Source of the DNA: a virus | Reading direction: 5' to 3' (one strand) | IMG/VR virus record: IMGVR_UViG_3300030106_006344 | Location: 1 to 29,708 of that record | Length of the DNA stretch: 29,708 bases | Shown: positions 3,300 to 21,692 of the stretch, one piece after another | How the letters are laid out: each line of letters opens with the position of its first letter | Numbering within the stretch: position 1 is the first letter of the stretch | Position numbers and translations under genes: made by a program | Notes under the pieces: model-generated | The model's input: the letters and a program-made list of their open reading frames with translations, nothing else | Database searches by the model: none | Told to the model about the DNA's origin: nothing

Positions 3300-4208
3300 A
3301 TGGCAATATCACGAGGACAATTAGTCAAGGAACTCGAGCCGGGTTTGAATGCCTTATTCGGTTTAGAGTATAAACGTTATGAGAATCAGCATGCTGAGAT
3401 ATATGTAACAGAAACTTCAGACAGAGCGTTTGAAGAGGAAGTTATGTTATCAGGTTTTGCAAATGCAGCAGTTAAACCAGAAGGATCTGCAGTAACTTTT
3501 GACACAGCTCAAGAGACTTACACAGCTAGATACACTATGGAAACAGTTGCGCTTGCATTCGCGATCACTGAAGAAGCGATCGAGGATAACTTGTATGACA
3601 GACTTGCTTCTAGATATACAAAAGCATTAGCTAGATCTATGGCGAACACAAAACAAGTTAAAGCAGTTGATCCATTGATCAATGGTTTCTCTGGAGGTAG
3701 CTTTACTTCTGGAGATGGTAGTAACTTATTCGTTACAAACCACCCAACGATCGCTGGAACAGTGTCTAACACTTTAGCAACTCAAGCAGACTTAAACGAA
3801 ACTTCATTAGAAGATTCGCTAGTACAAATAGCGAAGATGACTGATGAAAGAGGTTTAAAAATTGCAGCAAGAGGAGTGAAAATGATCGTTCCTTCTGAGC
3901 TACAATTTACTGCAGAGAGATTGATGAAGTCTCAAGGTAGAACTTCAACAGCTGACAACGATATCAACGCAATCGTTTCTATGGGAATGGTTCCTCAAGG
4001 TTACAGAGTGAACAATTTCTTAACTGACACTGATGCGTTCTTCTTAATTACTGACGTACCAAATGGTATGAAGTATTTCGAAAGATCGCCTATCAGAACA
4101 GCAATGGAAGGTGATTTCGATACTGGTAACGTAAGATACAAAGCTAGAGAAAGATACAGATTTGGTGTATCTGACTACAGAGGTATCTTCGGAGTATCTG
4201 GAGCGTAA
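3300..4208 (+). CDS. Major capsid protein
   Basis: The 302-residue product has the size and flow of a HK97-fold capsid protein: an N-terminal helix (AISRGQLVKELEPGLNALFG), a long charged segment, an ITEEAIEDN helix, an ALARSMANTKQVKAVDPLIN spine-like helix, and later KIAARGVKMIVPSELQFTAE and YFERSPIRTAME segments, which are frequent in capsid proteins of marine podoviruses. It follows the scaffold and the probable decoration gene. An AAGGAG site lies before the ATG and a terminator-like hairpin follows the stop, as expected for the most abundant virion protein. The fold assignment is by pattern recognition and would be decided by structure prediction. Confidence 0.85.
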   Translation: MAISRGQLVKELEPGLNALFGLEYKRYENQHAEIYVTETSDRAFEEEVMLSGFANAAVKPEGSAVTFDTAQETYTARYTMETVALAFAITEEAIEDNLYDRLASRYTKALARSMANTKQVKAVDPLINGFSGGSFTSGDGSNLFVTNHPTIAGTVSNTLATQADLNETSLEDSLVQIAKMTDERGLKIAARGVKMIVPSELQFTAERLMKSQGRTSTADNDINAIVSMGMVPQGYRVNNFLTDTDAFFLITDVPNGMKYFERSPIRTAMEGDFDTGNVRYKARERYRFGVSDYRGIFGVSGA

Positions 4209-4220
4209 TCGTAAAAAATT

Positions 4221-4250
4221 TGAGGCGGGACATAGTTCCGCCTCATTTCA
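4221..4250 (+). terminator. Terminator-like hairpin after capsid gene
   Basis: The sequence TGAGGCGGGAC-ATA-GTTCCGCCTCA (4221-4245) forms an 11-bp stem with one G-U pair and a three-base loop, starting 12 bases past the capsid stop. The 3' T-run is short (ATTTCAAT) and an A-run precedes the stem, so termination may be partial or the hairpin may protect the 3' end of the message. Confidence 0.6.
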
Positions 4251-4726: not shown

Positions 4727-4755
4727 TTGCACTCTATTAAAATCTAGTATATAAA
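4727..4755 (+). promoter_or_regulatory. Sigma70-type promoter
   Basis: TTGCAC (4727-4732), a 17-base spacer and TATAAA (4750-4755) match the bacterial -35/-10 layout in the largest non-coding gap of the window. Transcription would begin near 4762, exactly where the structured leader begins. No start site has been measured; this is from sequence alone. Confidence 0.55.
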
Positions 4756-4761
4756 TTAATC

Positions 4762-4819
4762 ACTATACAAATAAGTTCATGTAGACGAGTATAGTCGACG
4801 GCCTAAAGACTGCATGGAC
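4762..4819 (+). promoter_or_regulatory. Structured 5' leader with predicted pseudoknot
   Basis: GTTCATGTAG (4775-4784) pairs with CTGCATGGAC (4810-4819) over 10 bp including two G-U pairs. The enclosed 25 bases contain GTATAGT (4789-4795), which is the exact complement of ACTATAC (4762-4768) just upstream, so a 7-bp pseudoknot can form. A CGA/TCG mini-hairpin (4786-4788 with 4795-4797) is an alternative. The structure ends 7 bases before an AGGAGG site (4826-4831) serving the ATG at 4840. The bases ACTAT at 4837-4841, overlapping that start codon, could compete for the same loop. The layout resembles a cis-acting RNA switch or stabiliser; I do not match it to a named Rfam family. Confidence 0.55.
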
Positions 4820-4839
4820 GTAATTAGGAGGATAATACT

Positions 4840-5376
4840 ATGGCAAATACTACATTTGATGGTCCGGTACGATCACGTGCTGGATTCCAATCAATAGGAC
4901 CAGGATCAACTGTTGCGTTAACTGCAGCTACAAATTTAACTGTAGCAGCGCACGCAGGCAGAATTCTTACTATGGACCCTGTTGGAACACCTACAGCGAT
5001 TACTTTACCGTCAATCGTTGGCGGAACTGATTCAGCAACTGCAGGACCAGGAAGAGATCCAAACAACCCAAGCACAATTGGTACAACTTTTGAAATTCTT
5101 TTCATTGATGAATTCACTGGAACAATTTCAACTGATGGAACTGATAAGTTTGTAGGTTCAGTAATGATCGGTGTTAATGATGGAGCGAAAAAAGCTTTCG
5201 TACCTGCAGCAGCAAACGACGTTGTGAACTTAAATGGTGAAGCTGGAGCTGGTAACGCTACTACAGGTGGCTTAATCGGATCTAGAATTAAGTTTACTGC
5301 AACTGCAGAAAACACTTACATGGTTGAAGGTTTACTAATCGGTGATGGCACAATTGCTACGCCTTTTGGTAACTAA
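4840..5376 (+). CDS. Virion-type structural protein (178 aa), own transcription unit
   Basis: The product starts MANTTFDGPVRSRAGFQSIG; the 'FDGPVRS-x-x-GFQ' opening recurs in small structural proteins of marine phages. The rest is Gly-, Thr- and Ala-rich beta-type sequence with no Cys, consistent with a decoration, fibre-like or capsid-surface protein. A dedicated promoter and structured leader lie upstream, the ribosome binding site is a perfect AGGAGG, and a strong hairpin terminator follows 12 bases after the stop. That layout suggests high or separately timed expression. The exact virion location is unknown. Confidence 0.7.
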   Translation: MANTTFDGPVRSRAGFQSIGPGSTVALTAATNLTVAAHAGRILTMDPVGTPTAITLPSIVGGTDSATAGPGRDPNNPSTIGTTFEILFIDEFTGTISTDGTDKFVGSVMIGVNDGAKKAFVPAAANDVVNLNGEAGAGNATTGGLIGSRIKFTATAENTYMVEGLLIGDGTIATPFGN

Positions 5377-5387
5377 TAAATAATTAG

Positions 5388-5416
5388 ATGTGGGCCTTCG
5401 GGCCCACATAAAATTT
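5388..5416 (+). terminator. Terminator with TTCG tetraloop
   Basis: ATGTGGGCC (5388-5396), TTCG, and GGCCCACAT (5401-5409) form a perfect 9-bp GC-rich stem closed by a stable tetraloop. AAAATTTT follows, so the T-run is only four bases. The stem is the most stable hairpin I can see in the window and lies 12 bases past the stop of the 178-aa gene. Confidence 0.75.
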
Positions 5417-12384: not shown

Positions 12385-13002
12385 ATGTTTAACTTAAAAA
12401 ATATTTACTGGGCCTATTGGGGTGCCAGTGGTTTGACTAAAAAAATTTGTAATGAAATAATAAAACAAGGATTATTTCAACGAAGGGAAATGGGTATAAC
12501 AGGTGGCAATACCTATCCTAAAAATAAAAAAGAATTAAAAAAACAACAAAAAATTAGAAACTCTGAGATTAGTTGGATAAATCAATTTTGGGTATATAAA
12601 GAAATAAGACCTTTTATAGAAGCATCAAATAAAGCTGCTGGTTGGAATTATCAATATGATTCTTTTGAAAAATGTCAGTTTACTATCTATGATTCTTCTA
12701 AAGGTAAACAACACTATGATTGGCATACCGATAATAAACCAGGTGAAGAAAGTAAAACGTGTAGAAAAATATCTACAAGTATTCTTTTAAATGATCCTTC
12801 AGAATATGAAGGCGGAGAATTATTGTTTAGATCTTATGTTCCCCCTTATGATAACGTTCCTAAAATAATACATACCAAAGAGATTATGCGACAAGGAACT
12901 GTTATAACCTTTCCATCTTTTGTTATGCATAAGGTAAGCCCTGTCACAAAAGGAATAAGATACAGTTTAGTTATTTGGCACAGAGGAGATAATTTTAAAT
13001 GA
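12385..13002 (+). CDS. 2OG-Fe(II) oxygenase, PKHD/prolyl-hydroxylase-like
   Basis: The C-terminal half is a double-stranded beta helix of the 2-oxoglutarate/Fe(II) type: YDWHTDN gives H114-x-D116, then STSILLNDPSEYEGGELLF, GTVITFPSFVMHKVSPVTKG with distal H182, and IRYSLVIW with R192 as the 2OG anchor. Every expected ligand is present, so it is likely active. Members hydroxylate prolyl, lysyl or other side chains, or small molecules, using O2 and 2OG; the substrate here is unknown. This is the first of seven consecutive relatives, and the next gene starts 4 bases inside it. Confidence 0.88.
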   Translation: MFNLKNIYWAYWGASGLTKKICNEIIKQGLFQRREMGITGGNTYPKNKKELKKQQKIRNSEISWINQFWVYKEIRPFIEASNKAAGWNYQYDSFEKCQFTIYDSSKGKQHYDWHTDNKPGEESKTCRKISTSILLNDPSEYEGGELLFRSYVPPYDNVPKIIHTKEIMRQGTVITFPSFVMHKVSPVTKGIRYSLVIWHRGDNFK

Positions 13003-13688
13003 AAAAGAATTACACTATTTTAAGAAAAATAATATCACCAGAAAAAGCAGAGTTTTTAAAAAATTATTATTTAAATAAAAGAAAAGTTAGTAGACTTTAT
13101 TTTGACACTGCTTTTATATCTCAGTTTAATAAAGAATACGGAATATGGAATGATCCTCAATGTATGGGTGCTTGGTCCAACTATGGAGATATAGCAGGAG
13201 ATACATTGTTAGAAGAATTACAGCCAATCGTTGAAAAATTTTTTAAGAAAAAACTATATCCAACTTATTCTTATGTAAGAGTTTATGAAAAAGGTCATTT
13301 ATTAGCAAGACACAAAGATAGAGAAAGCTGTGAGCTATCAACTACTTTAAATTTAGGAGGCACTGAGTGGCCTATTTACATAGATGAAAATCCTAAATCT
13401 GGTTTTTGGATTACAAAAGATTCTAAAGTAAAAGGAAATATAAGTATTAAAAAAGAAAACGATTATTATTCAGAGTTTAACAAAGGTAAAAAAGTTATTT
13501 TAAAACCTGGAGATATGTTGGTTTATCAGGGTGATAAGAACGAACATTGGCGAGAGCCTCTATCTCACGGAATGTGTGTTCAAATATTTTTACACTATGT
13601 TGATCAAACAGGTAAATTTCAAAAAAATATCTATGATAACAGACCTATGTTAGGAGTAGATAGTTCATTACAAAGAAAGGAGGATTAA
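12999..13688 (+). CDS. 2OG-Fe(II) oxygenase-family protein
   Basis: The iron site pattern is ARHKDRESCE (H105-x-D107) and, after VILKPGDMLVYQGDKNEHW, distal H183. The strand GMCVQIFLHYV that usually carries the 2OG-binding Arg/Lys has neither in the expected place; R185 in HWREP is the likely substitute, as in some phage relatives. The centre contains the family's CELSTTLNLGGTEWPIYIDE strand. At 229 aa it is the longest of the seven, with extra sequence between strands at about 135-165. It overlaps its upstream neighbour by an ATGA. Substrate unknown. Confidence 0.8.
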   Translation: MKKNYTILRKIISPEKAEFLKNYYLNKRKVSRLYFDTAFISQFNKEYGIWNDPQCMGAWSNYGDIAGDTLLEELQPIVEKFFKKKLYPTYSYVRVYEKGHLLARHKDRESCELSTTLNLGGTEWPIYIDENPKSGFWITKDSKVKGNISIKKENDYYSEFNKGKKVILKPGDMLVYQGDKNEHWREPLSHGMCVQIFLHYVDQTGKFQKNIYDNRPMLGVDSSLQRKED

Positions 13689-13689
13689 T

Positions 13690-13926
13690 ATGAATAATAT
13701 CGGTGCACCAGTTGCAGAAAAAGGACCAAACGATCTAGAAGCTACTATAGAAAAACAAAGATGTAAAATAGAAGAACTAGAATCCGTTATAAAATCAGAG
13801 GTTATGTATAATAAATATTTTAAACAAACCGTTAAAAGTGCAGAAATTCAGTTAGAGTTGTTAGCTAAACTAAACAAAGATTTAATTGAAGAGAACGCTA
13901 GACTAAAACTTTTGGTACAAAAATGA
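13690..13926 (+). CDS. Small coiled-coil protein inside oxygenase cluster
   Basis: The 78-residue product is almost entirely a charged coiled coil (LEATIEKQRCKIEELESVIK, then QLELLAKLNKDLIEENARLK). It has one of the best ribosome binding sites of the cluster (AAGGAGG, 8-9 bases before the ATG), while most oxygenases around it rely on overlap with the previous gene. It overlaps the next start by 4 bases. It could tether oxygenases to each other or to a virion protein, but that is speculation; no family is recognised. Confidence 0.7.
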   Translation: MNNIGAPVAEKGPNDLEATIEKQRCKIEELESVIKSEVMYNKYFKQTVKSAEIQLELLAKLNKDLIEENARLKLLVQK

Positions 13927-14516
13927 ATATAGAAGCAAATTTTTATTATCTTGGACCATTATTATATCGAACTAAAGTTTTTAATGAGGACTTAATAAAA
14001 ATATTTAAGTTAAATCAAAGAAGTAAAAAGCTTGATCACAGAAGTAGATTAGCTGGACATATTAAAAAAGAACATACTTTTGAAGATTTAGATAAACTTA
14101 GAAAAATTTTAGATCCTTATCTATTGTCCTTTAATTCAGTTTATCAAGAATGGTACGGTGATAGAATAAAACCCTATAAGATAGAATCTGCTTGGATAAA
14201 TTCTATGGTAGCGGGTGAATACAACCCTGTTCATTGTCATGTAAACTGTAATTGGTCAGCTGTAATGTTTTTAAAAATACCCGATAAACTAAAACGGGAA
14301 CAAGAAAAACACATAGGCACTGCATCTAAACCAGGTAGTATAAGTTTTTTAGCAGGGCCTGTTGTAGAAAATTATATTAATTTTAAAACTTTTACTCCGC
14401 AAAATGGAGACTTATTTATATTTCCTAAAAATTTATATCATTTTGTTGAACCATTTAAATCAAAAGGAGAAAGGATATCGTTAGCCTTTAATTTAGAATA
14501 TGAAGATAATAGATAA
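13923..14516 (+). CDS. 2OG-Fe(II) oxygenase-family protein (Oxy_5-like)
   Basis: The pattern follows the 2OG-FeII_Oxy_5 (PF13759) type: WINSMVAGEYNPVHCHVNCN with H104-x-H106, a following VMFLKIP strand, NGDLFIFPKNLYHFVEPF with distal H173, and GERISLAFNLEY with R184. In that family H-x-H in place of H-x-D is usual as I recall it. The N-terminal half (LGPLLYRTKVFNEDLIKIF) is the helical front of the family. It overlaps both neighbours, the downstream one by 17 bases. Substrate unknown. Confidence 0.8.
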   Translation: MNIEANFYYLGPLLYRTKVFNEDLIKIFKLNQRSKKLDHRSRLAGHIKKEHTFEDLDKLRKILDPYLLSFNSVYQEWYGDRIKPYKIESAWINSMVAGEYNPVHCHVNCNWSAVMFLKIPDKLKREQEKHIGTASKPGSISFLAGPVVENYINFKTFTPQNGDLFIFPKNLYHFVEPFKSKGERISLAFNLEYEDNR

Positions 14517-14994
14517 TTTTATAGATCAAGAATCATTCAATATATTACAAAAGACTATGATTGGAGATGACAATCAATTTGCTTGGTATCACTCTCATTA
14601 TAAAAATTTTAAAGGAGATGGTATGTCTCAATTCATACACATGTTTTTTATGCCTTACACTTATCAAAGTAATTTTCATCCTTTGATACATCCTATACTA
14701 GATAAGTTACAGGCGACAGCTTTGATAAGAATTAAAGCTAATCTTACAATGAAAACTCCAAAACCTCATACCTGTCATTTTCATGTAGATGTTGCAGAAA
14801 ACTATAAACATTCAAAAACTGCTGTGTTTTATGTAAATACTAATAATGGTTATACGTTATTTAAAAAAGGAAAAAAGAAAGTTGCTAGCGTTGCAAATAG
14901 AATAGTTATCTTTGATGCCAAAGAAGAACACACAACTGTTACTCAAACAGATACCAATATTAGAGTGGTTATTAATTTAAATTTTTTTAATTAA
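14500..14994 (+). CDS. Compact 2OG-Fe(II) oxygenase-family protein
   Basis: At 164 residues this is the shortest of the seven. It has CHFHVDVAENYKHSKTAVFY with H95-x-D97, the NTNNGYTLF turn, NRIVIFDAKEEHTTVT with distal H144, and TNIRVVINLNFF with R155. All ligands of an active enzyme are present. This short type (HVD ... NTNNGYT ... NRIVIFD) is common in marine phage genomes. The ATG lies 17 bases before the upstream stop, so reinitiation or coupling is likely. Confidence 0.85.
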   Translation: MKIIDNFIDQESFNILQKTMIGDDNQFAWYHSHYKNFKGDGMSQFIHMFFMPYTYQSNFHPLIHPILDKLQATALIRIKANLTMKTPKPHTCHFHVDVAENYKHSKTAVFYVNTNNGYTLFKKGKKKVASVANRIVIFDAKEEHTTVTQTDTNIRVVINLNFFN

Positions 14995-15527
14995 TGTCAA
15001 TTTATTTTAAGCAAAGTAAAAATTTTATGACGGAGAATAATATTAAGTTTATAGAGAAAACCGTTTTAAATGATAACTTTCCATATTTTTTTAATTCTAA
15101 TACATTAACAAACAAAGACGATGCTTTTTTTAGTCACCAAGTATTGCAAAGATTAGAACTATCTCCTAATTATACCCCTGTTAATTCAGAAGCTTTTGCA
15201 CCTACCATAGATATTCTTAACAACTTTGTTAATTCAATATCTGAAAAAGTAAATTTTTATACACGAATTTCCTATAACATGACTTTTAATAATGGGTATG
15301 AAAAAAGCGGAACGCATATAGATCATGAATATCCACACAAACAAATAATAATTTATTTAAACGATGCAGATAAAAAATCAAAAACCTGTATAGTGGATGA
15401 AAAAGATAAAGTAATTAAAAGCATTAGCCCTGAAAAATATAAAGGTATATGCTTTGATGCTCAACGTCATTTTAATTATAATCCTGCAACCAAACATAGA
15501 TTGATACTAGTAGCTACATTTATATGA
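14994..15527 (+). CDS. 2OG-Fe(II) oxygenase-family protein
   Basis: YEKSGTHIDHEYPHKQIIIY gives H108-x-D110, YLNDADKKSK and TCIVDEKDKV follow as strands, KGICFDAQRHFNYNPAT gives distal H159 and KHRLILVATF gives R169. The order and spacing match the short phage-type oxygenases such as its upstream neighbour, but sequence identity looks low, so this is not a recent duplicate. The first base of its ATG is the last base of the previous stop. It ends in an ATGA overlap with the next gene. Confidence 0.83.
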   Translation: MSIYFKQSKNFMTENNIKFIEKTVLNDNFPYFFNSNTLTNKDDAFFSHQVLQRLELSPNYTPVNSEAFAPTIDILNNFVNSISEKVNFYTRISYNMTFNNGYEKSGTHIDHEYPHKQIIIYLNDADKKSKTCIVDEKDKVIKSISPEKYKGICFDAQRHFNYNPATKHRLILVATFI

Positions 15528-16096
15528 TAAATAACTTTATAGAAAAATATACGATTGATAAAAAAATTTGTAGAGGACTGATAGAGTTATTTGAAAATAA
15601 CTCTGATAAACATAACCGGGGTATATTAAATTCCAGAAGAGCAGACTCTGTTAAAAAATCTACCGATATTAGTATTCCTAGTAATTATAATAAAAGTAAA
15701 TACTTCACTGATTATTTAAAAGAACTAACCAAAGCATTAAATAAATATCAAAAAAAATATATTTATAGTGATAAACATCAATGCATGTATGGTATATGTG
15801 AAAACATAAACATACAAAAATATAAACCAAAAGAAGGTTTTTATATTTGGCATCATGAAAACGATGGAACTTTTGAAAGTAAAAATAGACATCTGGTATT
15901 TATGACTTATTTAAATGATGTGAAGAATGGTGGTACAGCATTTTTATATCAAAATAAAAAATTTCAAGCTAAAACAGGATCTACATTAATATGGCCTGCA
16001 ACGTGGACACATACTCATAAAGGAGTTATTTCTAAGACACAAACTAAATATATTATTACCGGGTGGTATAGTTATTATAACAATGATAAAGCATAA
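15524..16096 (+). CDS. 2OG-Fe(II) oxygenase-family protein with H-x-E motif
   Basis: GFYIWHHENDGTFESKNRHL places H110-x-E112 where most relatives have H-x-D. VFMTYLNDVKNGGTAFLYQ is the usual next strand, GSTLIWPATWTHTHKGV supplies distal H163 or H165, and QTKYIITGWYSY supplies K175 in place of the usual Arg. The WHxE / THTH / KYIxTGW set is, as I recall it, a coherent subfamily rather than decay, so activity is plausible. It overlaps the next gene by 14 bases. Substrate unknown. Confidence 0.82.
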   Translation: MINNFIEKYTIDKKICRGLIELFENNSDKHNRGILNSRRADSVKKSTDISIPSNYNKSKYFTDYLKELTKALNKYQKKYIYSDKHQCMYGICENINIQKYKPKEGFYIWHHENDGTFESKNRHLVFMTYLNDVKNGGTAFLYQNKKFQAKTGSTLIWPATWTHTHKGVISKTQTKYIITGWYSYYNNDKA

Positions 16097-16679
16097 TTTA
16101 TTTCCAACTCTTATAACTGAAACAAATAATTTTCTATCTAGTATTCAATGCAATGATATATACAAGTATATTGTTAATAATAAAAAACTATTAAATAAAC
16201 ACCCTGCTATTACTACAGATCAATCAGGGTCTAGTCATTCTTCTATATCTAATTTTTTAATGCAGGTTCAAGGAGATGTACCTTCATGCTATAATATTAT
16301 CAATACAATCTTAGATACAAGTAAAGATTATTTAAAGACCTCATCTTTTAGTGCAAAGAATAGGTTAGACAATTCGTGGTTTAATATTCAAACTAAAGAC
16401 TCTATGTTAAAAGAACATACACATCCTTTATCTGTTTTATCTGGAGTAATTTTTATTAAGTCAGATAAAAACTCTAGCAAAGTTTATTTTGAAAATCCTA
16501 ATCCTTTTTTAAAGATAACTTCATTTAATGAAGGTAATAATCCTCACAGTTCTAAATCGTTTTCTTTTGTAGCAACCCCAGGCACAATGTTATTATTCCC
16601 TGCTTGGTTAACTCATGGCTCAAATAACGTAGCAAATAAAAGTAAAGAAAGAATTGTGTTAAGCTTTAATATTGTGTGA
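16083..16679 (+). CDS. 2OG-Fe(II) oxygenase-family protein (Oxy_5-like)
   Basis: This is the second protein of the 2OG-FeII_Oxy_5 kind. SWFNIQTKDSMLKEHTHPLS gives H112-x-H114, SVLSGVIFIK follows, GTMLLFPAWLTHGSNN gives distal H178 and KERIVLSFNIV gives R190. The start MIKHNLFPTLITETNNF matches the usual 'FPTxI' opening of that family. The gene begins inside the end of its upstream neighbour, and its TGA stop overlaps a GTG start of the next gene (GTGA). It closes the oxygenase run. Confidence 0.83.
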   Translation: MIKHNLFPTLITETNNFLSSIQCNDIYKYIVNNKKLLNKHPAITTDQSGSSHSSISNFLMQVQGDVPSCYNIINTILDTSKDYLKTSSFSAKNRLDNSWFNIQTKDSMLKEHTHPLSVLSGVIFIKSDKNSSKVYFENPNPFLKITSFNEGNNPHSSKSFSFVATPGTMLLFPAWLTHGSNNVANKSKERIVLSFNIV

Positions 16680-20589: not shown

Positions 20590-20770
20590 TGTATATAAAA
20601 TAGATTGCACTACGATAACTACGTGGCGTAATACTAAAACTGGTGAAGTATTTAAAGAAAAGAAAGAAGGAACTGATATAGTTCAAGATGTAACTGTACA
20701 AGTTTCTCCGAAAGGCTTAGACATAATGCAGAAAGTAATGAATCAAAAAAATGATAAACCAAAAACCTAA
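20576..20770 (+). CDS. Small hypothetical protein (64 aa)
   Basis: The short product starts MKTDNVYKIDCTTITTWRNT and continues KTGEVFKEKKEGTDIVQDVT, a beta hairpin-like stretch, then a helix (GLDIMQKVMNQK). It overlaps the upstream gene by 14 bases and the glycosyltransferase by 20 bases. Strong positional packing and normal codon use support a real gene. Function unknown. Confidence 0.65.
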   Translation: MKTDNVYKIDCTTITTWRNTKTGEVFKEKKEGTDIVQDVTVQVSPKGLDIMQKVMNQKNDKPKT

Positions 20771-21692
20771 CGGCGGAACTGAATTACAATTCGACTATTT
20801 ATCAAAATACGTTGATGCAAAATTATTAAGTGAAGTACAGATCTGTACATCTGTGCCAGAAAAAATTCCATTACATCCTACAAAAGTAAATATCTTATGG
20901 CAAAAAAATTCTTACGATCAAAGTAATTTATATCCATGGTTTAAAGATAAATCTAATCATGACAAGTATGACTGGTATGTATTTAATAGTCATTGGACTT
21001 ATGAAAAATTTAGAAATCATTTTGATATACCTACACATAAATCTGTAGTAATTAAAAATGGTATAGATAAGATTGGTAAATCAGCACCCTATCAACAAGG
21101 TCAACCTATAAAAATTATTCATCAAAACACACCGTGGCGAGGATTGTCAGTATTATTAGGAGCTATGCAACTAATAAAAAATCCTTTGATAAGTTTAGAT
21201 GTGTATTCGTCTTGTGAGATATACGGAAAAGATTTTTATGAAAGAAACGATCATAACTATAAAGAATTATATAAACAAGCAGAACAATTAGATAACGTAA
21301 ATTACATTGGGTACAAACCAAATGGATTTATAAAAGATCACATGCATACGTATAACATGTATGTTTATCCAAGTATTTTTGAGGAGACATTTTGCATATC
21401 ACTATTGGAAGCAATGGCTGCAGGGTTGTATTGTATTACAACTAATTATGGCGCTCTGTTCGAAACAGGAGCAGAGTTTCCAATGTATATACCTTATGAA
21501 AAAGATTATAGATTACTAGCTAAAAAATTTGCATACGGTATAGAAGCTGCTGCTAATAGTTTACATGAAGAACAAATACATAATCATTTAGAATGTCAAT
21601 CTGCATATGCACAAACATACTACGGTTGGAATAAAATTGGTACATCTTGGAAAAGATTTTTGGAAGGAGCGGTAAATGCAAAAAAGTCCTAA
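20751..21692 (+). CDS. GT4-type glycosyltransferase (GT-B fold)
   Basis: The product has the C-terminal GT4 signature: MYVYPSIFEETFCISLLEAM with E212-x7-E220, the pair that contacts the nucleotide-sugar ribose, then AAGLYCITTNYGALFE. The nucleotide-binding half starts near KIIHQNTPWRGLSVLLGAMQ (121-140), with the usual TPWRGL basic/Gly contact. The N-terminal half is shorter than in cellular GT4 enzymes, so acceptor binding may be reduced or specialised. It would add a hexose to a glycan or protein. The next gene, a GT-A enzyme, starts 17 bases before its end, so the two are one unit. Confidence 0.85.
   Translation: MINQKPNGGTELQFDYLSKYVDAKLLSEVQICTSVPEKIPLHPTKVNILWQKNSYDQSNLYPWFKDKSNHDKYDWYVFNSHWTYEKFRNHFDIPTHKSVVIKNGIDKIGKSAPYQQGQPIKIIHQNTPWRGLSVLLGAMQLIKNPLISLDVYSSCEIYGKDFYERNDHNYKELYKQAEQLDNVNYIGYKPNGFIKDHMHTYNMYVYPSIFEETFCISLLEAMAAGLYCITTNYGALFETGAEFPMYIPYEKDYRLLAKKFAYGIEAAANSLHEEQIHNHLECQSAYAQTYYGWNKIGTSWKRFLEGAVNAKKS

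Follow-up and report, generated by a model that had tools for sequence, protein, structure and literature searches.

A conserved leader with one hairpin and two predicted pseudoknots before a probable capsid spike gene of aquatic phages

Genes and features at the locus

The window, as we call the whole stretch of DNA analysed here, comprises the 29,708 bases of a virus record. It encodes a major capsid protein (MCP) that shares 92% identity with the MCP of Pelagibacter phage HTVC027P, and the window phage is an HTVC023P-type pelagiphage, a phage abundant in the ocean. A promoter and a folded leader sit between the capsid gene and the gene of a 178-aa protein. In the following list P1 and P2 are helices and PK1 and PK2 are pseudoknots.

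3300-4208: capsid gene, upstream of the leader
4727-4755, + strand: sigma70-like promoter TTGCAC-N17-TATAAA, read from the sequence; the TATA box is kept upstream of PK1a in relatives
4762-4768, + strand: 5' strand of PK1 (PK1a), ACTATAC, at the predicted mRNA 5' end
4775-4784, + strand: 5' strand of P1 (P1a), from alignment covariation
4785-4787, + strand: invariant A and C at the start of the loop, with 4786-4787 as the 5' strand of P2
4789-4795, + strand: 3' strand of PK1, GTATAGT, in the apical loop of P2
4796-4797, + strand: 3' strand of P2, from the alignment
4797-4799, + strand: invariant GAC, from the alignment
4802-4806, + strand: 5' strand of PK2, CCTAA, from the anchor-fixed complement test
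4807-4809, + strand: AGA, invariant in the 47-row alignment
4810-4819, + strand: 3' strand of P1 (P1b), from alignment covariation
4824-4828, + strand: 3' strand of PK2 (PK2b), TTAGG, three bases of which are common to the Shine-Dalgarno (SD) sequence
4826-4831, + strand: SD sequence AGGAGG
4840-5376, + strand: gene of the 178-aa protein, a probable capsid spike by structure model and fold comparison

No Pfam or PHROGs family was found for the 178-aa protein. Its N-terminal peptide MANTTFDGPVRS is conserved and modelled at low confidence, and residues 1-20, mostly of low confidence in the model, are probably disordered. The remainder is modelled as a beta domain (mean pLDDT of the model 69.6). 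The best structural match is the C-terminal part of the capsid spike of Pseudomonas phage Pa223 (Z 10.3, rmsd 2.2, 99 aligned residues), and the Foldseek E-value, obtained with this model of pLDDT 69.6, is 1.6e-3. T4 baseplate domains of the gp9/gp10 type and domains of the tailspike-adaptor type follow with Z 8-10. The model thus points to a probable capsid spike. Across lineages the first 16 residues persist, and the rest of the protein varies from 73 to about 300 residues.

Several neighbouring features were noted in passing. A hairpin resembling a terminator, with few T's as judged by eye, lies shortly 3' of the capsid gene at 4222-4244, and a strong UUCG-capped hairpin at 5388-5409, without a T-run on the + strand, separates the spike stop codon from the SD sequence that follows. 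A GroES-like co-chaperonin (Cpn10) is encoded at 706-1164 and a group 1 glycosyl transferase at 20751-21689. The region 12385-16679 holds a run of seven small ORFs with a tandem of 2OG-Fe(II) oxygenases, which is odd for the structural region of a phage. The ORFs at 12385, 13923, 15524 and 16083 exceed the Pfam cut-off for 2OG-Fe(II) oxygenase families, those at 12999 and 14500 match such families under the cut-off and that at 14994 has no Pfam match; the scan excluded the short intervening ORF at 13690.

Fold of the leader and its covariation

The promoter proposed in the preliminary description, with a start near 4762, agrees with the sequence in its motif coordinates: the -35 element TTGCAC at 4727-4732 is separated by 17 nt from the -10 element TATAAA at 4750-4755, so that the first base of the RNA would be at about 4762. 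It is missing from the list of a mechanical promoter scan because the scan requires T as the final -10 base. TATA is found at most 16 nt from PK1a in all 63 distinct leaders of the window's subtype. A scan for -10-like boxes, whose last-base rule passes over this subtype, placed a box 6-9 nt 5' of PK1a in 26 of 49 leaders and at another position in 14, and found none in 9; in most leaders of class C (described below) the box lies 8-9 nt 5' of P1a. From these spacings we infer that the first helix lies at the mRNA 5' end. Across leaders, PK1a is 72-91 nt away from the start codon.

The predicted fold is compact. It consists of one hairpin and two pseudoknots, starts at the predicted 5' end of the message and ends at the ribosome-binding site. 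P1 has 10 bp, two of them G-U (4775-4784 with 4810-4819), exactly where the preliminary description had placed a hairpin. PK1 has 7 bp (4762-4768 with 4789-4795), and this pairing, too, had been foreseen. P2 is a short helix of two to three pairs, in the window 4786-4787 with 4796-4797. Since the 3' strand of PK1 lies in the P2 loop, PK1 would be a pairing of the mRNA 5' end with that loop. PK2 pairs the other half of the P1 hairpin loop (4802-4806) with 4824-4828. Thus P1 and PK1 of the earlier structure stand, but it was incomplete, as PK2 and the short P2 had been missed. Two details had to be corrected. The spacing between P1 and AGGAGG is 6 bases rather than the 7 given before, and ACTAT at 4837-4841, overlapping the start codon and thought to compete for the PK1 loop in an exclusive second state, is found in 17 of the 63 distinct leaders of the window's subtype and is not conserved.

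Thermodynamic folding (MFE) of the window leader was uninformative: the fold of 99 nt gave a z of -0.08, no support beyond chance, and the centroid contains only P1. The evidence comes from comparison. Scans with the 178-aa protein and two named relatives gave overlapping sets of 80, 80 and 80 loci among the matches listed. Alignment A1 holds 47 non-redundant leaders, taken from 50 representatives of 158 distinct parsed leaders; L274 and L288 (no PK2), L289 (no PK1) and L001 (a near copy) were dropped and the window was added. In A1, 97.6% of the P1 cells are paired, with changes on both sides at 8/8 pairs, and 95.0% of the P2 cells, with changes on both sides at 2/3 pairs. For both helices together 96.9% of cells pair, a value reached by 0/500 shuffles, and versions slid along the alignment pair at 20-43%. 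The only invariant leader positions in A1 are the AC that opens the loop, GAC, the AGA before the 3' strand of P1 and the A of the start codon.

A parser that seeks pairings is biased, and the pseudoknot tests were therefore repeated with strands fixed by the anchor alone, that is, solely by their distance to GAC or AGA. This test used 194 of the 205 leaders that carry the core described below (11 with a local P2 were excluded), of which 67 non-redundant ones remain; redundancy in the pseudoknot and helix tests was removed by a similarity cut, not by a tree. Among 54 non-redundant class A leaders, the PK1 5-mer has its exact complement upstream of P1 in 52 (15 distinct 5-mers) and the PK2 5-mer has its exact complement downstream in 52 (18 distinct 5-mers). 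When partners were swapped between leaders, exact complements were found in 27/2522 cases (1.1%) for PK1 and 37/2564 (1.4%) for PK2, and shuffled regions gave one in about 1 of 54 leaders. In class B, which has no PK2 by design, the PK2 test gave 0/12 after three misfiled leaders (L238, L262, L292) had been taken out. Taken one by one, PK1 exceeded 95% of shuffles in 31 of 50 leaders and PK2 in 43 of 50; single leaders are therefore often unconvincing by themselves. The compensatory changes on which the preliminary description had made its leader depend are present, and a promoter followed directly by a pseudoknotted leader RNA is supported by covariation in many phage contigs. Judged from these alignments, the fold is widespread and conserved across many aquatic phages, and of fold and conservation we are as good as certain.

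Four architectures and one gene type

A common core can be given as a rule: P1, an unpaired A, P2 beginning with a C-G type pair, AC, the loop, AGA and the 3' strand of P1. Of the distinct starts with the N-terminal motif, 222 in all and of both types, 205 have this core, as do 10 of 1110 shuffled leaders. Among starts selected by protein it is present in 110 of 119; eight of the nine exceptions, inspected by eye, bear the element with a changed base, and the ninth (L097) is a paralogous second gene without it. The 205 leaders fall into class A with PK1 and PK2 (158), class B with PK1 and a GCCA loop replacing PK2 (34, or 31 after removal of the 3 misfiled class A rows), class C with a local P2 hairpin and the GCCA loop (8) and a form with a local P2 hairpin and PK2 (2); 3 rows have no clear architecture. 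As all four combinations occur, either pseudoknot can be swapped for a local element. With two tertiary modules that can each be exchanged while the core stays, this set amounts to a natural experiment in RNA evolution. Some leaders show further variants by eye. In the lineage of L254, L263, L272, L280, L282 and L328, PK2b is the loop of a 3-bp GTG/CAC hairpin, and PK2 thus looks like a kissing pair too. In L227, L238 and L292 a local CCTT/AAGG hairpin around the SD sequence overlaps PK2b, possibly as an exclusive alternative state.

The doubly replaced form, with local hairpin and GCCA loop, is Rfam family RF03012, Mu-gpT-DE, in which 'DE' stands for downstream element. The RF03012 model matches 8/8 class C records tested, 3 of them above the cut-off; 13 of 14 unrelated control genomes also give matches under the cut-off. 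In the window the model found nothing at the gathering threshold nor at E<=10, L009 and L244 likewise gave no match at E<=10 and the 9 bits of L254 are at chance level. An Rfam search of the window at both settings returned nothing relevant. RF03012 and the window form are both located before a MA.TTF.GPV gene and share the core (P1, unpaired A, P2 with C-G first, AC, and AGA before the 3' strand of P1). In RF03012 the P1 3' strand overlaps the SD sequence. The window form differs in its long P1, in a P2 of only 2-3 bp with its loop engaged in PK1 instead of a local P2 hairpin, and in PK2, which stands in place of the GCCA loop. R1, a covariance model of the window form, scored 62.8 bits on the window, 55.7 and 66.3 bits on the two isolates, 43-45 bits on class B leaders and only 17.6 bits (E 0.28) on a single one of the class C loci covered; its searches included one of 25 chosen loci. 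Because this direct match to class C is not significant, the kinship of classes A and C rests on the common core, the intermediates and the common gene. The window form is a new form of an RNA kind already known, and that kind is functionally uncharacterised.

With hardly an exception, the element stands before a single gene type, which encodes proteins starting MA.TTF.GPV. The pattern GACTGN4-7GCAGACN5-9AGAC, which selects on RNA features, occurs at no fewer than 120 places. Among the 120 listed, 96 have a P1 of at least 6 bp, and there a GP-type start comes next in 91, the contig ends in 2, variant starts follow in 2 (L318, L320) and 1 is a chance match (L325). The other 24 (P1 below 6 bp) include 5 with a GP-type start and 2 cut by the contig end; the rest look like chance. 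With a pattern for the window's subtype, ACTATA lies upstream in 120/120 matches listed (for L480, near a contig end, the check took in much more of the upstream sequence), and the start is strict in 111, variant in 8 and cut in 1. For the class C pattern the 120 matches listed have CCTGA upstream in 106, a GP-type start in 104 and both in 97. Apart from chance coding matches, the element was never seen ahead of an unrelated gene; of the class C rows that lack a start call, some were read downstream. No metabolic gene lies downstream in any RNA-selected set among the matches listed.

The element is also present in cultured phages, before HTVC023P gp41 and HTVC027P gp62. A search of genome contigs gave three loci, in a Pelagibacteraceae single-cell assembly, a Maricaulis MAG and a SAR86 MAG, with the element in 3/3 leaders; these are possibly viral contigs. 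Two phage records that were read, one of a Rhizobium phage and one from Manatee Spring, have the C-terminal domain only and lack both the N-terminal peptide and the RNA. RNA and peptide thus go together. In two contigs a second gene of the MA.TTF.GP type occurs without the RNA (L097, at 2072, and L259, on the reverse strand).

A candidate for translational control

That the leader acts in cis on the downstream gene is, in our judgement, very probable. That it does so as a 5'-terminal translational control element abutting the ribosome-binding site is the reading we favour by a little over even. RNA polymerase would start at about 4762, and the first bases of the message would pair with half of the P1 hairpin loop as PK1. 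The other half of the loop would pair, as PK2, with the sequence running into the SD sequence. The 5' end would then be folded in, and the last helix would contain the ribosome-binding site or hold it close: ribosome access would be poor with PK2 formed and restored with PK2 open, and spike translation would be set in this way. The invariant unpaired A, the AC/GAC and the AGA may form a compact core that a trans-acting partner could stabilise. Protection of the 5' end from decay would be a likely side benefit.

The main argument for translational control is that each class places the SD sequence within or next to a helix, though in its own way. Among 158 class A leaders the SD sequence overlaps PK2b by at least 2 nt in 91; PK2 also overlaps it in the window. 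It overlaps P1b in 8/8 class C leaders, and in class B a separate small local hairpin surrounds it (mean z -2.4 over 34 leaders, mononucleotide shuffles). The PK2/SD overlap suggests an exclusive choice between PK2 and a free SD sequence; since it is under 2 nt in 67 of the 158 class A leaders, occlusion is not universal there. The covariation of the fold, the -10-like boxes ahead of the first helix, the restriction to one gene type and the absence of the RNA from the two records without the N-terminal peptide also speak for this reading. The SD argument is not proof, because the ends of a short leader are near each other in any case, and the paralogous second genes with the same N-terminus and without the RNA count against control.

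To translational control with a partner we give about even chances, and naming the spike or the capsid protein as that partner is a distinctly tentative step. If the gene product were the ligand, the N-terminal peptide would have to bind, as about 16 N-terminal residues are the only part common to all downstream proteins. This is doubtful, as a classical RNA-binding peptide would look different. The capsid protein encoded upstream has an equal claim to the role, and feedback of capsid protein on spike supply is our leading guess for the trigger. The broadest version is speculative and rather doubtful: Mu-gpT-DE would be one corner of a large phage RNA superfamily, so far unrecognised, with two swappable pseudoknots around a fixed core, and capsid protein would bind this core and tie spike translation to capsid supply.

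The most serious competitor, to which we give roughly a one-in-four standing, is a constitutive 5' stabiliser or insulator. Here the buried 5' end would slow 5'-end-dependent decay with no partner and no switching, and in pelagiphages a strong post-stop hairpin would guard the 3' side, so that the spike message would be long-lived. The first helix does start at the predicted transcription start in all classes, and a strong hairpin (z below -2) directly follows the stop codon in the genes of 17 of 42 leaders, including the one at 5388-5409 in the window. However, most lineages other than pelagiphages lack this 3' hairpin, and a plain hairpin would suffice for protection, so that the invariant unpaired bases, the SD-linked PK2 and the class B SD hairpins would go unexplained. 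An antitermination or RNA-polymerase-modifying element like HK022 put, heading the tail-gene operon, would agree with the location right after a promoter, often right after a terminator hairpin, and with the long co-directional operon downstream. Yet put sites are not known to need SD contact, and the leader always stands before one gene type, with 72-91 nt between PK1a and start codon, and is coupled to the SD sequence of that gene, which makes such an element improbable.

A metabolite or ion riboswitch, the function first considered beside translational operator and 5' stabiliser, and the one of these three that is disfavoured, is slightly less probable still. Its anatomy would be alike, with a compact pseudoknotted fold, an invariant unpaired core and an SD-linked last helix; but the element sits only before virion structural genes of one type, with no metabolic gene in the RNA-selected sets, and matches no Rfam riboswitch family. 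A DNA-level signal such as a recombination or packaging site, whose inverted repeats would be complementary too and mimic RNA helices, can hardly be upheld: 29 of 376 P1 cells are G-U or U-G on the RNA strand, orientation and distance to one gene are fixed and a promoter lies in front. Two other ideas were dropped, a glutamine-riboswitch-like reading of the string GTTCA...GGACG, which found no Rfam support, and a hammerhead or other self-cleaving ribozyme, of which no known core was seen by eye.

Structured RNAs in comparable positions are known. HK022 put RNA, like the leader described here, is a structured RNA with which a phage transcript begins, but it acts on RNA polymerase and is not known to be coupled to an SD sequence. 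Our search of the literature on pelagiphage RNAs, Mu-gpT-DE, HTVC023P and phage operators found no paper on the leader. A likeness exists to the translational operator of T4/RB69 gene 32, where, as here, the leader of a phage mRNA carries a 5' pseudoknot shortly before the ribosome-binding site (PMC535899, PMC3014915). In gene 32 one simple pseudoknot nucleates cooperative binding of gp32 over an unstructured AU-rich stretch (PMC535899, PMC3014915), whereas in the leader described here one loop is shared by two pseudoknots that adjoin the SD sequence, and a protein partner is only proposed. The E. coli rpsO (S15) operator, named in PMC3014915, is another translational operator that contains a pseudoknot and belongs to its own gene; the likeness is by description only, and its ribosomal protein ligand is known. 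That 2010 review regards the T4 gene 32 pseudoknot as perhaps the only viral example that autoregulates translation (PMC3014915). The leader is a testable second candidate for such autoregulation by a viral pseudoknot, in cultured phages.
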